64,000 nt of DNA from Gilliamella mensalis. Lineage in GTDB: Bacteria > Pseudomonadota > Gammaproteobacteria > Enterobacterales > Orbaceae. Made by a program: the position numbers and the translations under genes. Numbering within the stretch: position 1 is the stretch's first letter; every line of letters begins with the position of its first letter. Positions 13,630-18,988 of this stretch are shown here, one piece after another. The notes below the pieces were generated by a model. The model saw only the letters and a program-made list of their open reading frames with translations. It was not told the DNA's origin and ran no database searches. The stretch is from positions 1-64,000 of the forward strand of contig NZ_FMWR01000014.1 in the NCBI RefSeq assembly GCF_900103085.1. Direction: 5' to 3'.

Positions 13630-14601
13630 TTAATTATAATCAGTTTTTATTTGATATTGAGTATCAATTTGTTGAAAAATAAAATTATCGGGGTTTACTA
13701 ATATGGCTGTTTTATTTTTTAACAAAAAGATAGCCGACAAGTTTTGATGCTTTTGCAAGTATTGTCTGCTTTTATCAACTCCCCATCCATAAAAGACGGT
13801 TGAGTAAATATCACCCTCTAATGAAGAATCTGAAATGATAGTTACGCTTTCTAATTCATTATTTAATGGATAACCTGTTTGAGGATTTAATAGGTGATGA
13901 TAAAGACGATCATTTTGTATAAAAAAACGCTCATAAATGCCCGATGTGACAACTGATTTATCTTTAACTTTTATAATTCCTGATAGTTTTCCATTAGTGG
14001 AAAATGGTTTTCTTAATCCTATATGCCAATAGCCGTTACCATCTGTTAAAGATGAGTCTAATGTTAATACATTACCACCTAAGTTAATGATACCTTTGTA
14101 CACTTGATGTTGGTGTAAAATTGATTTGACAACATCGGCAATATATCCTTTAGCAATTGCACCTAAATCAATTTCCATTCCCGGTTTTCTTAAAAAAACA
14201 GAATATGTGTTTGTATCCAGTTCAATATTTTTAGGATCAATTAACAACAGTTTTTCTCTAATTAACTTAGCTGATGGAACTTGATAACCATTGAAACCAA
14301 TTTTCCAAAGTTTAACTAAGGGACCAATAGCAAAATTAAAACAACTATTAAAATATAGACTTATTTTTTGAGCTTGTTCAATCAAAGAAAAAACAGAACG
14401 GCTCACTATAACGGGGTGTTGTCCCGCAGCTGAATTAATTGACATAACTTCGGATGATGACCTATTAACGGTCAATTTATCCTCAAGCGTTTTTATTGTC
14501 TGAAAAACGGCATATGCAGCGGCTTCATTAGGCTCGAAAAGCATTAATGAAACCGTTGTTCCCATTAAAGTTTGAGTATATTCATAGCTCTGACTTACCA
14601 T
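13630..14601 (-). CDS. apbE: FAD:protein FMN transferase (ApbE family), cytoplasmic
   Basis: Transfers FMN from FAD onto a threonine of target flavoproteins. Seen: the ApbE fold with TLMGTTVSL near the start, the conserved KGYIADVV region, INLGGN, and the HHLLNPQTGYP motif that binds metal and FAD. There is no signal peptide or lipobox, so it should act in the cytoplasm, unlike periplasmic ApbE. It lies 29 bases after the fumarate reductase gene, which carries a consensus flavinylation site and is the obvious substrate. The frame opens with TTG at 14616; I prefer ATG 14601 (323 aa), with modest confidence because neither start has a strong ribosome binding site. Confidence 0.9.
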   Translation of the reverse strand: MVSQSYEYTQTLMGTTVSLMLFEPNEAAAYAVFQTIKTLEDKLTVNRSSSEVMSINSAAGQHPVIVSRSVFSLIEQAQKISLYFNSCFNFAIGPLVKLWKIGFNGYQVPSAKLIREKLLLIDPKNIELDTNTYSVFLRKPGMEIDLGAIAKGYIADVVKSILHQHQVYKGIINLGGNVLTLDSSLTDGNGYWHIGLRKPFSTNGKLSGIIKVKDKSVVTSGIYERFFIQNDRLYHHLLNPQTGYPLNNELESVTIISDSSLEGDIYSTVFYGWGVDKSRQYLQKHQNLSAIFLLKNKTAILVNPDNFIFQQIDTQYQIKTDYN

Positions 14602-14630
14602 GCTAAATAATTTCAACTAATTTTAAAAAA

Positions 14631-17402
14631 TTAACTTTTAATATAATCAACAGCTTTTTTACCCGCCTGCATGCCAAAAATAATGATATCTGCAACTGCG
14701 TTACCACCTATACGGTTTGCGCCATGTACTCCCCCCACTACCTCACCTGCAGCGAAGACGCCATGAATGATATTTTTATTAGCATCTAAGACTTGTGTTT
14801 GAGTATTAATAGTAACACCTCCCATTGTATGGTGAACGCCTGGTGCAATTTTTATTGCATAGAAAGGTCCTTTTTCTATTGGATGACGCATACCTGTTGT
14901 TCGTCCAAAATCTTCATCATTTTTAGTTGTTGCAAAATGATTGTATCGTTTTATAGTTTTAGTTAATGTATTGTCATTAATCGATAGTTTTTGAGCTAAT
15001 TCTTCAATCGTATTTGCTTGGATAACAAGTTCATTTGCAACATATTCTTCAACTGATCTGTTTTCATCACGTACTTGTTGATCAAATAAAATATAAGCAT
15101 AGTGTTCCGGTAGTTTGATAATCTCAGCTGATACATTGTCCCGGGTGTCAAGTTCATTAACAAATCGTTGGCCTTCTTGCGATACAAGTATCGCGCCCCC
15201 ACCACGAATAGATTCTGAAATTAAATAAGAAGAGGTTTGTTCAACGGTTGGATGAATTTGAATTTCTCCCATATCAACGGTTCCAGCACCAAGCTTTTCA
15301 AGCATCATAATACCAGAGCCGGTAGCACCTTTATGATTAGTGGTGACAAATCCTTTAAGATCAGGGCGATATTTTTCAACCATTGCAGTATTGGCACTAA
15401 ATCCACCGGTTGCAATAATGACAGCTTTGGTTTTTATCATATGAGTTGAACCGTCTTCTTCTGAAACTTTAACGCCAATAATTTTATGGTTTTCGGTTAC
15501 AATTTCAGTAACTGCTGTATCAAGCATGACTTCGATACCACGCTTATTGATATTTCTGACTAGCCCACTGATTAAGAAACCACCTACCGCTGCTCCACTT
15601 TCTGGGCGGTGTGTTCGATCAATACTCATACCGCCAGTTGTTGTAATACCACTTAGTTCAATACCATTATCATCTAACCAATTGATCGCATCTGGTGCAT
15701 TTTCAACAAAATACCGCAATAAGTCAGGGTTATTTTTATTTTTTCCACCTATCATCGTTTCTTGATAAAAGAGTTCTTTACTGTCTTTGATACCTTTAAT
15801 TTTTTGGAACTTGGTTTCTGCAGCATTCATACCTGCCGAGGCTTTATTCGTATTACCGCCAATAACAGACATTTGCTCAACAATTACCACATTTGCGCCC
15901 AGATCATGAGCTTGTATAGCGGCTGCTAACCCTGCACCACCACTACCAACTACTATAACATCGAAAGATTGGTCATTTGGATCGCCACCTTCGGCAATAA
16001 TTGCAGCTTTATTAGATTTTGCCATCGCTTTAGTGACAGCTTTTTTGAAAGCTTCGCATTGAGTAGTTGCTCCCGAAATAGTATCAACATGTGGGCTGTT
16101 TGAATCAATAATTCTATTTTTTATAACAGTGAAGTTATCTAGAATGTCATTATCAAACTCTTTAGCGTTCACCAACGCTATATCTTTAATAAAATCTTTA
16201 CCTAATTCAACATTAATAAGAAACTCATAAGATTCGTCATTGACTGTTTCTTGGTAATTACCTGGTTGGAATTTTTTAACATTAAGGTTAACATCTCGAA
16301 TCAAGCTTTCAACCAAAGAAAAACGCCACAAAGGTTCAGGAATATTAAGCTCTTCACGTTTATCACTATTGATAAATAGTTCTAGTTTCTCGCCTTTCTT
16401 AATACGGCTTATCCAATCAGGATAAGCAATACAAGCCCGACCAACTGCAACTAAGTCATAACCATTGTCTATGGCATTATCAACATCATTTTTATTAATA
16501 ACATTACCAACACCCACAACAGGAATTTTAGCTAATGTTTCTGAACGCATTGCAACATATTTATTGATTAACGGCGTAGGATCTTGTGTATCAACTATTG
16601 ATGGTCTAAGTGTCGCTCCCATTGAAAAATGGAAATAATCAAGTCCTTTTTCAGCCAATTTTTCAAGTAAATACATTGTATCATCAAAACGAATTCCTGG
16701 GACTTCTAACTCTTCGGGAGAAAAGCGGTAGCCAACAATAAATTCAGATGTTGCATATTGCTTGACCATATTATGGGTAATATCTAAAACAGCAAGCGGG
16801 AATCGAGTACGATTATCACGGCTACCGCCCCATTTATCGTTCCTTTGATTTGAATTAGGGGAATAAAATTGTTGGATTAAATAGGTATTGGCGCCATGAA
16901 TTTCTATGCCGTCAAAACCCGCTTGAATAGCTCGACGTACGGCTTGACCAAACTTATCAATCATGTCGTCTACTTCTGCCGCTGTTAATTCAATTGGAGT
17001 GGGGGCATTTGGACGTGGGGCCGCAATAGCGCTAGGTCCAACTGGCGATTGGCCTCCAATTAACTTTGGTTCAACCATCCGTCCACCATGATAAACCTGA
17101 ATAATAGCTGTAGATCCTTGTTCTTTGATAATCTTAGCTATTTTTGCTAAACCTTCTATTTTCTCATCACTATCTAAACCTATAGCGCCAGGAAAAGCTA
17201 ATCCTTTATTATCAACAAAACCACATTCGACAATAATAGTGCCTATTTCACCTGATCTTACACGATAATATTCTATCAAGTCATGCGTAACTGAACCATC
17301 ATAAAAACCAGAACAAGTTGTCATTGGTGCCATCATTATGCGGTTTTTTAGCCTAATACCATTAGGCAGCGTTAGCGGCTTAAAAATATTTTCATTTTGC
17401 AT
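14631..17402 (-). CDS. Soluble NADH:fumarate reductase, OYE-like + FMN_bind + FAD_binding_2 fusion
   Basis: Three-domain cytoplasmic flavoenzyme expected to use NADH to reduce fumarate (or a related enoate) to succinate. Seen: an Old-Yellow-Enzyme-like NADH domain (about 5-345, with KNRIMMAPMT and EIHGAN), an FMN_bind domain with the flavinylation motif DTISGAT at 440-446 (T446 would carry FMN), and a flavocytochrome-c-type FAD domain from about 478 (GSGGAGLA at 486-493). Fumarate-site residues are present: the arginine in FVNELDTRD, the histidine in HHTMGG and the arginine in HGANRIGGN. The layout matches the cytoplasmic fumarate reductase described in Klebsiella. There is no signal peptide. 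It is first in an operon with apbE and a DASS carrier. Acrylate or urocanate derivatives remain possible substrates. Confidence 0.9.
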   Translation of the reverse strand: MQNENIFKPLTLPNGIRLKNRIMMAPMTTCSGFYDGSVTHDLIEYYRVRSGEIGTIIVECGFVDNKGLAFPGAIGLDSDEKIEGLAKIAKIIKEQGSTAIIQVYHGGRMVEPKLIGGQSPVGPSAIAAPRPNAPTPIELTAAEVDDMIDKFGQAVRRAIQAGFDGIEIHGANTYLIQQFYSPNSNQRNDKWGGSRDNRTRFPLAVLDITHNMVKQYATSEFIVGYRFSPEELEVPGIRFDDTMYLLEKLAEKGLDYFHFSMGATLRPSIVDTQDPTPLINKYVAMRSETLAKIPVVGVGNVINKNDVDNAIDNGYDLVAVGRACIAYPDWISRIKKGEKLELFINSDKREELNIPEPLWRFSLVESLIRDVNLNVKKFQPGNYQETVNDESYEFLINVELGKDFIKDIALVNAKEFDNDILDNFTVIKNRIIDSNSPHVDTISGATTQCEAFKKAVTKAMAKSNKAAIIAEGGDPNDQSFDVIVVGSGGAGLAAAIQAHDLGANVVIVEQMSVIGGNTNKASAGMNAAETKFQKIKGIKDSKELFYQETMIGGKNKNNPDLLRYFVENAPDAINWLDDNGIELSGITTTGGMSIDRTHRPESGAAVGGFLISGLVRNINKRGIEVMLDTAVTEIVTENHKIIGVKVSEEDGSTHMIKTKAVIIATGGFSANTAMVEKYRPDLKGFVTTNHKGATGSGIMMLEKLGAGTVDMGEIQIHPTVEQTSSYLISESIRGGGAILVSQEGQRFVNELDTRDNVSAEIIKLPEHYAYILFDQQVRDENRSVEEYVANELVIQANTIEELAQKLSINDNTLTKTIKRYNHFATTKNDEDFGRTTGMRHPIEKGPFYAIKIAPGVHHTMGGVTINTQTQVLDANKNIIHGVFAAGEVVGGVHGANRIGGNAVADIIIFGMQAGKKAVDYIKS

Positions 17403-17686
17403 TTTTATATACCTAACATTTAATCTTTTTAGTTTCCAGTAATGATAACATTACCAAAAGCCATTCTCCACTTAGATTAATGTCACTAATAGTAACGTGT
17501 ATCATTTTTTCGACTAAAATTTTCTTAGGTTTATTAATTGATTAGAAAATTATCGATATAAATAAATTACGGTTTTAGTTATTTTTTAGCTTCTATAACG
17601 GTTAAACTGTCACAGTTATAACTAAAAATCTAAAAAAAAACACTATAAGTATTTCATTTGGTTACATATTTTTTATGATTTTTATG
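17403..17686. other. Divergent intergenic region upstream of fumarate reductase gene
   Basis: No ORF. It must hold the minus-strand promoter of the fumarate reductase operon. I looked for an Fnr site (TTGAT-N4-ATCAA) and a Crp site and found neither in convincing form. The stretch is AT-rich with an A9 tract near 17632-17640. Confidence 0.5.
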
Positions 17687-17714
17687 TTGAACTTTACTTT
17701 TGTTAATATAAAAT
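17687..17714 (+). promoter_or_regulatory. Putative promoter of the pyrD-like leader transcript
   Basis: TTGAAC (17687-17692) and TAAAAT (17709-17714) with 16-base spacing. Transcription would start near 17721, about 25 bases before the leader ORF. An overlapping TATAAA at 17707 is an alternative -10. Confidence 0.45.
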
Positions 17715-17745
17715 GCATTAAAGTTAACATAAAGAGAATATCGTA

Positions 17746-17928
17746 ATGTTTGTAATACCGATTGGGCGCTTAAAATTAAAACCAATTTTCTATTCTCTAT
17801 TGATCCTATTTTTTAGTCCTCCTTTAAGGAGGATTTTTTTTGTTTTAAAAAGCTCTTCTTTTTATTTTTATTTTTATTACAAATTAATGATCAATCTTAC
17901 CTTAAGAACATCCATAATTAGGAGATAG
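17746..17928 (+). CDS. Leader peptide reading through an attenuator, upstream of pyrD-like gene
   Basis: A 60-codon ORF with a purine-rich AAAGAGA 9 bases before its ATG. It ends with TAG at 17926-17928, one base before the ATG of the downstream gene. The peptide is very Phe/Tyr/Leu/Ile-rich because the mRNA is U-rich, and it resembles no functional protein I know. What matters is geometry: the frame runs straight through the terminator hairpin at 17817-17833 and stops well past it. A ribosome closely following RNA polymerase would prevent the hairpin from forming. That is the arrangement of the UTP-sensitive pyrBI leader of E. coli. The call as a regulatory leader is inference. Confidence 0.55.
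   Translation: MFVIPIGRLKLKPIFYSLLILFFSPPLRRIFFVLKSSSFYFYFYYKLMINLTLRTSIIRR
17817..17841 (+). terminator. Attenuator-type intrinsic terminator in the pyrD-like leader
   Basis: Stem TCCTCC / GGAGGA (17817-17822, 17828-17833) with a TTTAA loop and a run of eight T. It is preceded by a U-rich tract in the RNA (CTATTTTTTAG near 17805-17816) where polymerase could pause at low UTP. It lies inside the leader ORF, 89 bases before the pyrD-like start. Confidence 0.8.
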
Positions 17929-17929
17929 T

Positions 17930-18988
17930 ATGCAATTTTTAACACCTTTTTATAATCCAACTATAAGTTACGAAGATAATTATGCTCAAGGTCCCTTTGG
18001 TCTTTTTGCACAATTAGATAAAGCGCAACAAATCCCAACAAAATCTTCAAAGTTCTTAAATGTTGATGTCAATTTACCATTTGGTATACCTGCAGGCCCC
18101 TTATTAAATGCACATTATATCAAAGCAGCATTTGCTTATGGATTTGACTTGTGTGTTTATAAAACAGTCAGAACCAAGTTGCATAAGTGTCATCCTTTAC
18201 CTAATGTCTTATCGGTTCATCCTAAAGGTAAATTATCGTGTAATTTAGATACGGTATTAGCTAATACTGATTATAATCAACCGTTATCAATTACTAACTC
18301 ATTTGGTGTTCCTTCTTTTTCTCCAGATGTTTGGCAACCTGATATGGCTGATGCTGTGAAAGCGGCTAATCATGGACAATGTGTAATTGGAAGTTTTCAA
18401 GGAACACAGGGTATTGGTGATATAGAAAAAGATTATGCTTTAGCTGCAAAATTAGTTCGGGAAACCAATGCACCTATTCTTGAGGCAAATTTAAGCTGCC
18501 CGAATGAAGGGGCAAGTAAATTACTTTGCTTTGATATTGATAAAGTTGAACGAATTGTTAATGAAATTAAAACGGCTGTTTCTGATCGTCCACTTATTTT
18601 AAAACTAGCTTATTTTGCTGATGATGAAAAAATTATTTCATTACTCAATCGAGTAGGATCCATTATTGATGGTTTAAGTACTATTAACACGTTATCTGCA
18701 AAACCTGTTGATGCTCATGGCCATCCTGCATTAGGCGAAAATAGAAAAGAAGGCGGAGTTTGTGGTGATGCAATCCGTTGGGCTGGTTTAGATATGGTGA
18801 GCCGTTTAGCTAAATATCGTCAGGAAATGGATCTAAAATTTGCTATTGTAGGTGTTGGTGGTGTTAGTTCTAGTGAACATTATCATCAATTTATAAAAAG
18901 TGGTGCTGATGCTGTCATGAGTGCTACTGGTGCGATGTGGAATCCATTACTGGCGATAGAAATTAAACAAACATTTAAATCTAATTGA
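17930..18988 (+). CDS. Dihydroorotate dehydrogenase-family protein, class 1-like
   Basis: FMN TIM-barrel enzyme of the dihydroorotate dehydrogenase family; the likely role is oxidation of dihydroorotate to orotate in pyrimidine synthesis. Seen: FGIPAGPLLNA near residue 51, YKTVR, NSFGVPS, NLSCPN with the active-site cysteine C190 typical of class 1 (class 2 enzymes have serine), IVGVGG and the C-terminal phosphate-binding stretch. The length of 352 aa is longer than usual class 1A enzymes (about 311). The sequence diverges enough that another substrate is possible. AGGAG lies five bases before the ATG. The pyrBI-like leader upstream supports a pyrimidine role. Confidence 0.8.
   Translation: MQFLTPFYNPTISYEDNYAQGPFGLFAQLDKAQQIPTKSSKFLNVDVNLPFGIPAGPLLNAHYIKAAFAYGFDLCVYKTVRTKLHKCHPLPNVLSVHPKGKLSCNLDTVLANTDYNQPLSITNSFGVPSFSPDVWQPDMADAVKAANHGQCVIGSFQGTQGIGDIEKDYALAAKLVRETNAPILEANLSCPNEGASKLLCFDIDKVERIVNEIKTAVSDRPLILKLAYFADDEKIISLLNRVGSIIDGLSTINTLSAKPVDAHGHPALGENRKEGGVCGDAIRWAGLDMVSRLAKYRQEMDLKFAIVGVGGVSSSEHYHQFIKSGADAVMSATGAMWNPLLAIEIKQTFKSN

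Follow-up and report, generated by a model that had tools for sequence, protein, structure and literature searches.

The DNA analysed here is a stretch of 64,000 nucleotides from Gilliamella (Orbaceae), a lineage of bee gut bacteria, and is referred to in its full length as the window. The gene of interest (17930..18988; this and all features of the leader lie on the + strand) encodes a divergent member of the dihydroorotate dehydrogenase (DHODH) superfamily of 352 amino acids, an assignment based on profile searches, predicted fold and gene neighbours. Ahead of it stands a sigma-70-type promoter found by scan (17687..17714; -35 TTGAAC at 17687-17692, 16-bp spacer, -10 TAAAAT at 17709-17714), followed by a leader open reading frame (ORF) of 60 codons (17746..17928). 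This ORF begins with ATG 17746, 184 nt ahead of the DHODH-like gene and downstream of a weak Shine-Dalgarno sequence (AAAGAGA), runs through a terminator, and closes with a TAG at 17926-17928 that one T separates from ATG 17930 of the gene. The terminator consists of the hairpin TCCTCC-TTTAA-GGAGGA (17817..17833), identified from the sequence, a pattern search and conservation, and of a conserved T8 tract (17834..17841), with a computed energy of -11.3 kcal/mol. The 30 nt just 5' of the hairpin (17787..17816) are 60% T and 17% A and form the proposed pausing region for RNA polymerase, U-rich in the transcript, and the Shine-Dalgarno sequence of the structural gene, AGGAG (17920..17924), falls within the end of the leader ORF. 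Upstream of the promoter is a conserved DNA element of 36 bp (17629..17664) that is common to the promoter of an amidohydrolase gene elsewhere in the genome. The original prediction had placed a promoter, a 60-codon leader ORF, a T-rich tract and a terminator inside the ORF at this locus, and all four can be read directly at those places. Scanned on its own, this sequence does not stand out from shuffled controls, with 12 promoter-like sites against 14.5 expected and three terminators against 1.9 expected, so the case for both promoter and terminator rests on conservation. An Rfam search of the 64-kb window at the gathering score returned tRNA only and gave no match to the leader.

The DHODH-like protein is the sole protein of its genome over the cut-off for PF01180, the DHODH superfamily profile (75.7 bits against a gathering score of 27), and it stays below every NCBIfam PyrD cut-off listed, the best score being 80.5 bits against 269. 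The gene had been predicted to come from a pyrimidine pathway family; 'DHODH-family' is right by fold and PF01180, and 'pyrD' is not established since the PyrD cut-offs are not reached. A structure model built from an alignment of 29 sequences (pLDDT 88.8, against 35.7 for the single sequence without alignment) superposes on human DHODH with Z 33.2 and an rmsd of 2.6 over 309 residues and on E. coli DHODH with Z 32.5 and an rmsd of 2.9 over 308 residues, and dihydropyrimidine dehydrogenase (DPD) follows close behind at Z 31.9. The fold thus fits both enzymes, and DHODH is favoured over DPD by the pyrimidine gene neighbours of its relatives and by the motif SCPN at residues 189-192, which is invariant in the 29 sequences and which, as we take it, reads SCPH in DPD.

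Relatives of the protein occur in Gilliamella, then in the other Orbaceae genera Schmidhempelia, Orbus, Frischella and Zophobihabitans, with others in bacteria that include Commensalibacter, Snodgrassella and Bifidobacterium. Six loci from Commensalibacter and Neisseriaceae/Snodgrassella (L058, L060, L063, L064, L066, L067) encode proteins with 63-70% identity to it, a pattern that may reflect gene transfer. When neighbours within about 3 kb were clustered at 56 loci (L057-L112), most of these neighbours being unannotated outside this group, just five loci, all from other bacteria, had the pyrF group, with pyrF over its cut-off in each. One reads carB-pyrC-DHODH-aspartase/fumarase family-pyrE-pyrF (L109) and two read amidohydrolase-DHODH-pyrE-pyrF (L071, L112); in the remaining two the DHODH relative lies beside pyrF and a dihydroorotase-like gene (L072) or beside pyrF and a weak pyrE (L084). 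Several of these neighbours score a little under cut-off, namely pyrC at L109 and L072, pyrE at L109, L071 and L084, and the aspartase-family gene. In the window, the divergent neighbour of the DHODH-like gene (14631-17402, - strand) encodes 923 aa with Oxidored_FMN, FMN_bind and FAD_binding_2 domains and is followed by ApbE (13630-14616, - strand); this 923-aa gene adjoins the DHODH-like gene at 31 Gilliamella loci and in both Schmidhempelia bombi records. PMC11325843 describes a gene for an NADH-dependent fumarate reductase that was gained before Gilliamella and Schmidhempelia diverged, and the 923-aa gene would be that fumarate reductase. Together with the aspartase/fumarase-family gene at L109, this neighbour hints at fumarate as electron acceptor.

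The leader was compared across Orbaceae loci from 44 genomes, 39 of them at least 90% complete. Relatives of the DHODH-like gene are present in 43 of the 44, and the upstream DNA was read at all 43 loci. Such a comparison among relatives had been proposed with the original prediction, and at 33 of the 43 loci (32 Gilliamella, one Schmidhempelia) the hairpin directly 5' of the gene, the open frame and the T-rich stretch are kept. At eight further loci the DHODH-like gene is the second of an operon, with the hairpin before the first gene, an amidohydrolase gene, and these loci were left out of the leader counts for that reason; two genomes with the same genus label as the window (G028, G029) have the DHODH-like gene without either the hairpin or the 36-bp element. 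In the 33 DHODH leaders the hairpin takes the form TCCTCC-N-GG(A/G)GGA followed by T6-9, and a promoter of the form TTGNNN-16-TANAAT is found at every locus. The promoter and terminator before the DHODH-like gene are therefore real, as their conservation shows.

The leader frame is equally well kept. In every one of the 33 DHODH leaders, 32 starting with ATG and one with GTG, it continues without a stop into the hairpin and past it. After thinning to 20 leaders with less than 85% similarity, all 20 lack a stop between start codon and hairpin, where dinucleotide shuffles lead one to expect 4.8 such leaders, a statistic that is inflated by start codons having been picked partly for reaching the hairpin; the same 20 leaders hold no stop in the leader frame and 64 and 27 in the other two. 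A chance ORF was rejected on the open frame in all 33 leaders and on this 20 against 4.8, with the bias in start choice borne in mind. The distance from start codon to hairpin is 71 nt in 22 leaders, 65 in seven, 64 in two, and 68 and 74 in one each, such that 31 of the 33 (65, 68, 71 or 74 nt) keep one frame relative to the hairpin and change in length by threes. The last 30 nt before the hairpin average 56% T and 24% A, with T exceeding A in all 33, and in the 30 nt preceding these T exceeds A in a single leader. The peptide itself, judged by eye, is not the same from group to group outside the part dictated by the hairpin; within that part, 31 of 33 leaders encode Pro-Pro in the 5' arm (17817-17830 in the window). 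No run of regulatory codons was seen by eye in the leader peptides. Nor is there a stem beyond shuffles between start codon and hairpin in the DHODH leaders (mean z +0.57; one of 33 below -1). The position of the leader stop drifts: it overlaps the gene's ATG as ATGA in 15 of 33 leaders, and the other positions span -69 to +26. The stop one base before the gene, which had been put forward as part of the layout, holds for the window and is found in just four of the 33 leaders.

The same leader stands before a second gene. A search of the 44 genomes for the strict hairpin pattern gave 47 matches in 37 genomes, one or two in each, of which 33 precede the DHODH-like gene and 14 an amidohydrolase gene, so that all 47 lie before one of these two genes; a generic terminator was rejected as an explanation on this rarity and confinement. 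The amidohydrolase protein was found in 42 of 44 genomes, and 43 upstream regions were taken from these (two from G029, with three broken G029 copies left out). All 43 loci carry the hairpin, which thereby spans the five Orbaceae genera; GGAGG is often replaced by GGGGG, and the stem TCCTCC/GG(A/G)GGA is shared by 76 of 76 leaders across two genes and five genera. In the genome of the window this gene (G000:C29:80275-81288, - strand; locus L191) encodes a protein that matches NCBIfam NF005365, a hypothetical-protein equivalog, at 462 bits against a cut-off of 340 and is related to cytosine deaminase (CodA). It reads VHVDQ where the CodA alignment has VHCDE, with Gln at the position of the Glu that we take to be catalytic in CodA. 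The two genes are adjacent, with the leader before the amidohydrolase, in both Frischella-genus genomes, four Orbus-genus genomes, Zophobihabitans and G042; they lie apart, the DHODH-like gene having its own leader, in 32 Gilliamella genomes and S. bombi (G041). G029 carries two full-length and three broken amidohydrolase copies on several contigs, each with the 36-bp element nearby upstream.

The amidohydrolase leaders share the anatomy less completely. One of the 43 loci lacks a leader start codon in the range searched; in the other 42, the leader ORF ends beyond or inside the hairpin in 32, 3-4 nt before it in nine and earlier in one. Among 26 non-redundant leaders, 19 reach the hairpin without a stop where shuffles predict 5.7, a figure on which the biased choice of start codons weighs more than in the DHODH set, and seven have a stop before the hairpin base; stops by frame number 7, 61 and 66. 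T-richness before the hairpin is weak (0.44 T against 0.34 A; T exceeds A in 31 of 43) and absent in several leaders, Pro-Pro codons fall at the hairpin in eight of 42, and a stem with z below -1 precedes the hairpin in 21 of 42.

The two genes are further tied together by the 36-bp element, TCTMAAAAAWAAYACTNTAACNWTTTCATTTRNTTA, which stands upstream of both promoters and is the longest conserved block seen. With up to three mismatches allowed, it gives 80 matches in 43 of 44 genomes, against none for a reversed control pattern: 33 at the DHODH-like gene, 42 at the amidohydrolase loci read, one at the amidohydrolase of G033, three beside the broken G029 amidohydrolase copies, and one that duplicates the DHODH site of G017 where a contig end overlaps. 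At this tolerance it is confined, in the 44 genomes, to these two promoters, and the genome of the window holds exactly two sites. It is found within two mismatches at 33 of 33 DHODH leader loci and 42 of 43 amidohydrolase loci, and G002 has it with four mismatches. In 67 of 75 cases 22 bp separate the element from the -35 TTG, and in the remainder 21 or 23 bp. This is most likely a regulator site, and the nearly fixed promoter spacing of such a presumed site suggests that the two genes form a small dedicated regulon. The confinement of both hairpin and element to the DHODH-like and amidohydrolase genes likewise points to a two-gene regulon rather than a lone attenuator. What the original prediction missed is the second gene with the same leader and the element, which lay outside its coordinates.

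As to the pyrimidine setting of these genes, the family of the gene is as predicted, and what went unseen is the absence of pyrB and of dimer-type pyrC over cut-off in the Gilliamella genomes searched. Aspartate carbamoyltransferase (pyrB) is over its cut-off in none of the 44 genomes, with a lower-scoring match in 42 that is, in the genome of the window, ornithine carbamoyltransferase. The dimer-type dihydroorotase (pyrC) occurs in five of 44 genomes, none of them Gilliamella, in a search that, among dihydroorotases, covered this type; the genome of the window has both pyrE and pyrF. These results agree with PMC12964762, which, with reference to Kwong et al. 2014, describes G. apicola as having no enzymes for pyrimidine synthesis. 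PMC5726620 names orotate as one of the 28 substrate ions by which colonised bees are best told apart from microbiota-depleted ones. A cluster in one Orbus genome (L129, G037) combines an MFS-transporter-like and a pyrK-like gene, both under cut-off, with a class 1B DHODH and a dimer-type dihydroorotase, and is suggestive of orotate use rather than synthesis.

From the anatomy and conservation of the leader we think it slightly better than an even bet that this region acts as a transcription attenuator of the pyrBI kind, coupled to translation. Transcription would start just downstream of 17714, and a ribosome would begin the leader ORF while RNA polymerase crosses the T-rich stretch. At low UTP the polymerase would slow within this stretch, allowing the ribosome to close up and cover the 5' arm of the hairpin, and with that arm occupied the polymerase would read into the DHODH-like gene; at high UTP a fast polymerase would let the hairpin form, and transcription would stop. 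The same device would act on the CodA-like amidohydrolase gene elsewhere in the genome, a regulator at the 36-bp element would control initiation at both promoters, and the products would supply orotate to PyrE and PyrF. That the frame is kept open to the hairpin while the peptide and the stop position drift is what a pyrBI mechanism predicts. Weighing against it are the variability of stop position and peptide as such, the seven amidohydrolase leaders that stop short of the hairpin base, and the DHODH-like genes of G028 and G029, which have no leader or element.

In E. coli pyrBI, as set out in PMC7818426 and PMC4824070, the ribosome can suppress the terminator when low UTP slows transcription; this terminator lies within a 135-bp leader peptide gene (PMC4824070) and follows U-rich pause sites (PMC7818426). 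The Gilliamella leader resembles this arrangement in that a leader ORF (pyrL in E. coli) overlaps an intrinsic terminator, with a U-rich tract before and a pyrimidine gene after. It differs in the genes controlled, which are DHODH-like and CodA-like amidohydrolase genes in genomes without a pyrB over cut-off, in the additional 36-bp element, in the two unlinked copies of the device, in the frequent overlap of leader stop and gene start codon, and in having no T run just past the -10 for slippage, as judged by eye with the start unmapped. As an accessory feature, pyrBI has an RNA stem 5' of the U tract that promotes pausing. By anatomy, then, the leader works like a pyrBI attenuator; it is not a pyrBI operon, and homology is not claimed. 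In the rph-pyrE attenuator of E. coli the translated upstream gene is rph, in place of which a dedicated leader is used here. The genome of the window has an ORF, read by eye as rph, that ends about 13 bp before pyrE, leaving little room for an attenuator of the rph-pyrE type in Gilliamella. Common to both would be UTP-sensitive attenuation of a late pyrimidine gene (described for rph-pyrE in PMC7818426), the UTP part being proposed in our case. In E. coli and Salmonella, pyrC and pyrD are subject to start-site switching, and what would be shared with them is control of DHODH expression by the pyrimidine pool (PMC7818426). Unlike start-site switching, the control suggested here centres on a terminator inside a leader ORF that starts far ahead of the gene. 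Leaders of trp, his and other amino-acid operons also use a translated leader to control a terminator, as we propose for this one. They are set apart from the DHODH leaders by the lack, in the latter, of a regulatory codon run and of an antiterminator-like stem beyond shuffles.

Other explanations account for parts of these observations. The strong shared element points to initiation control, which could be the main control: a regulator bound there would set both genes, and the terminator would be a fixed damper that a constant fraction of polymerases passes. The length of the conserved block, its confinement to two promoters and its nearly kept spacing from the -35 speak for this explanation; a fixed damper, however, needs neither a frame open to the hairpin, nor length changes in threes, nor a T-rich stretch, and as a complete account we regard it as unlikely, if deserving serious attention. 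Rather less likely still, in our judgement, is ribosome-coupled attenuation that senses a cue other than UTP, such as the speed of Pro-Pro translation, EF-P activity or general uncoupling. Here the Pro-Pro codons of 31 of 33 DHODH leaders would be explained, but they recur in merely eight of 42 amidohydrolase leaders, CCTCC is fixed by the stem anyway, no regulatory codon run was seen by eye, and the genes stand in a context of pyrimidine supply. That the amidohydrolase leaders are only weakly T-rich argues against UTP as the common signal or implies a weaker response there.

The leader ORF might instead be a small protein gene with its own terminator, the DHODH-like gene being served by its own promoter downstream. 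An open frame with a start codon in every one of the 33 leaders would be expected of such a gene; that the peptide differs between groups (by eye) and that from 17841 to 17930 the scan showed the + strand to be free of promoter-like sites make this improbable. Finally, a ligand- or protein-binding RNA, whether riboswitch or site for an RNA-binding protein, in which the ORF is incidental, would explain why all 76 leaders have one and the same stem, a constancy beyond the demands of a terminator, yet such an RNA is hard to reconcile with a maintained leader frame, with the lack of an Rfam match in the window and with DHODH leaders that have no structure beyond shuffles besides the terminator, and we give it very little credence. 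A riboswitch in particular was rejected on the last two of these observations.

Translation-coupled attenuation of the pyrBI kind is thus the reading we carry forward, with two unlinked pyrimidine-supply genes probably tuned by how closely ribosomes follow RNA polymerase, and with UTP, by analogy to pyrBI, as the most likely signal for that coupling. A wider reading joins these results with the host's metabolism, and we offer it tentatively, as a possibility that may well prove wrong. A previously undescribed module for orotate supply would be kept in Gilliamella, for which a lack of pyrimidine synthesis is described, and in related Orbaceae. In it, PyrE and PyrF would be fed by the CodA-like amidohydrolase and by a divergent DHODH, perhaps linked to fumarate, which together would stand in for PyrB and PyrC. 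This two-gene regulon would be run by a new transcription factor at the 36-bp element and by translation-coupled attenuators that sense UTP; the attenuator would have been duplicated as the ancestral operon came apart in S. bombi and most Gilliamella. In the open-licence literature, among the matches listed, we found no description of a pyrD leader attenuator or of this two-gene regulon; PMC7818426 describes attenuation of the pyrBI type in E. coli for pyrBI and pyrE. If our reading is true, this type of attenuation would be extended to a different gene pair, with the device placed on two unlinked genes. Two uncharacterised enzymes would also be marked out as co-regulated in a bee symbiont to which PMC12964762 ascribes an inability to make pyrimidines and, taken with the orotate reported from bees (PMC5726620), this co-regulated pair would pose a specific and testable metabolic question.
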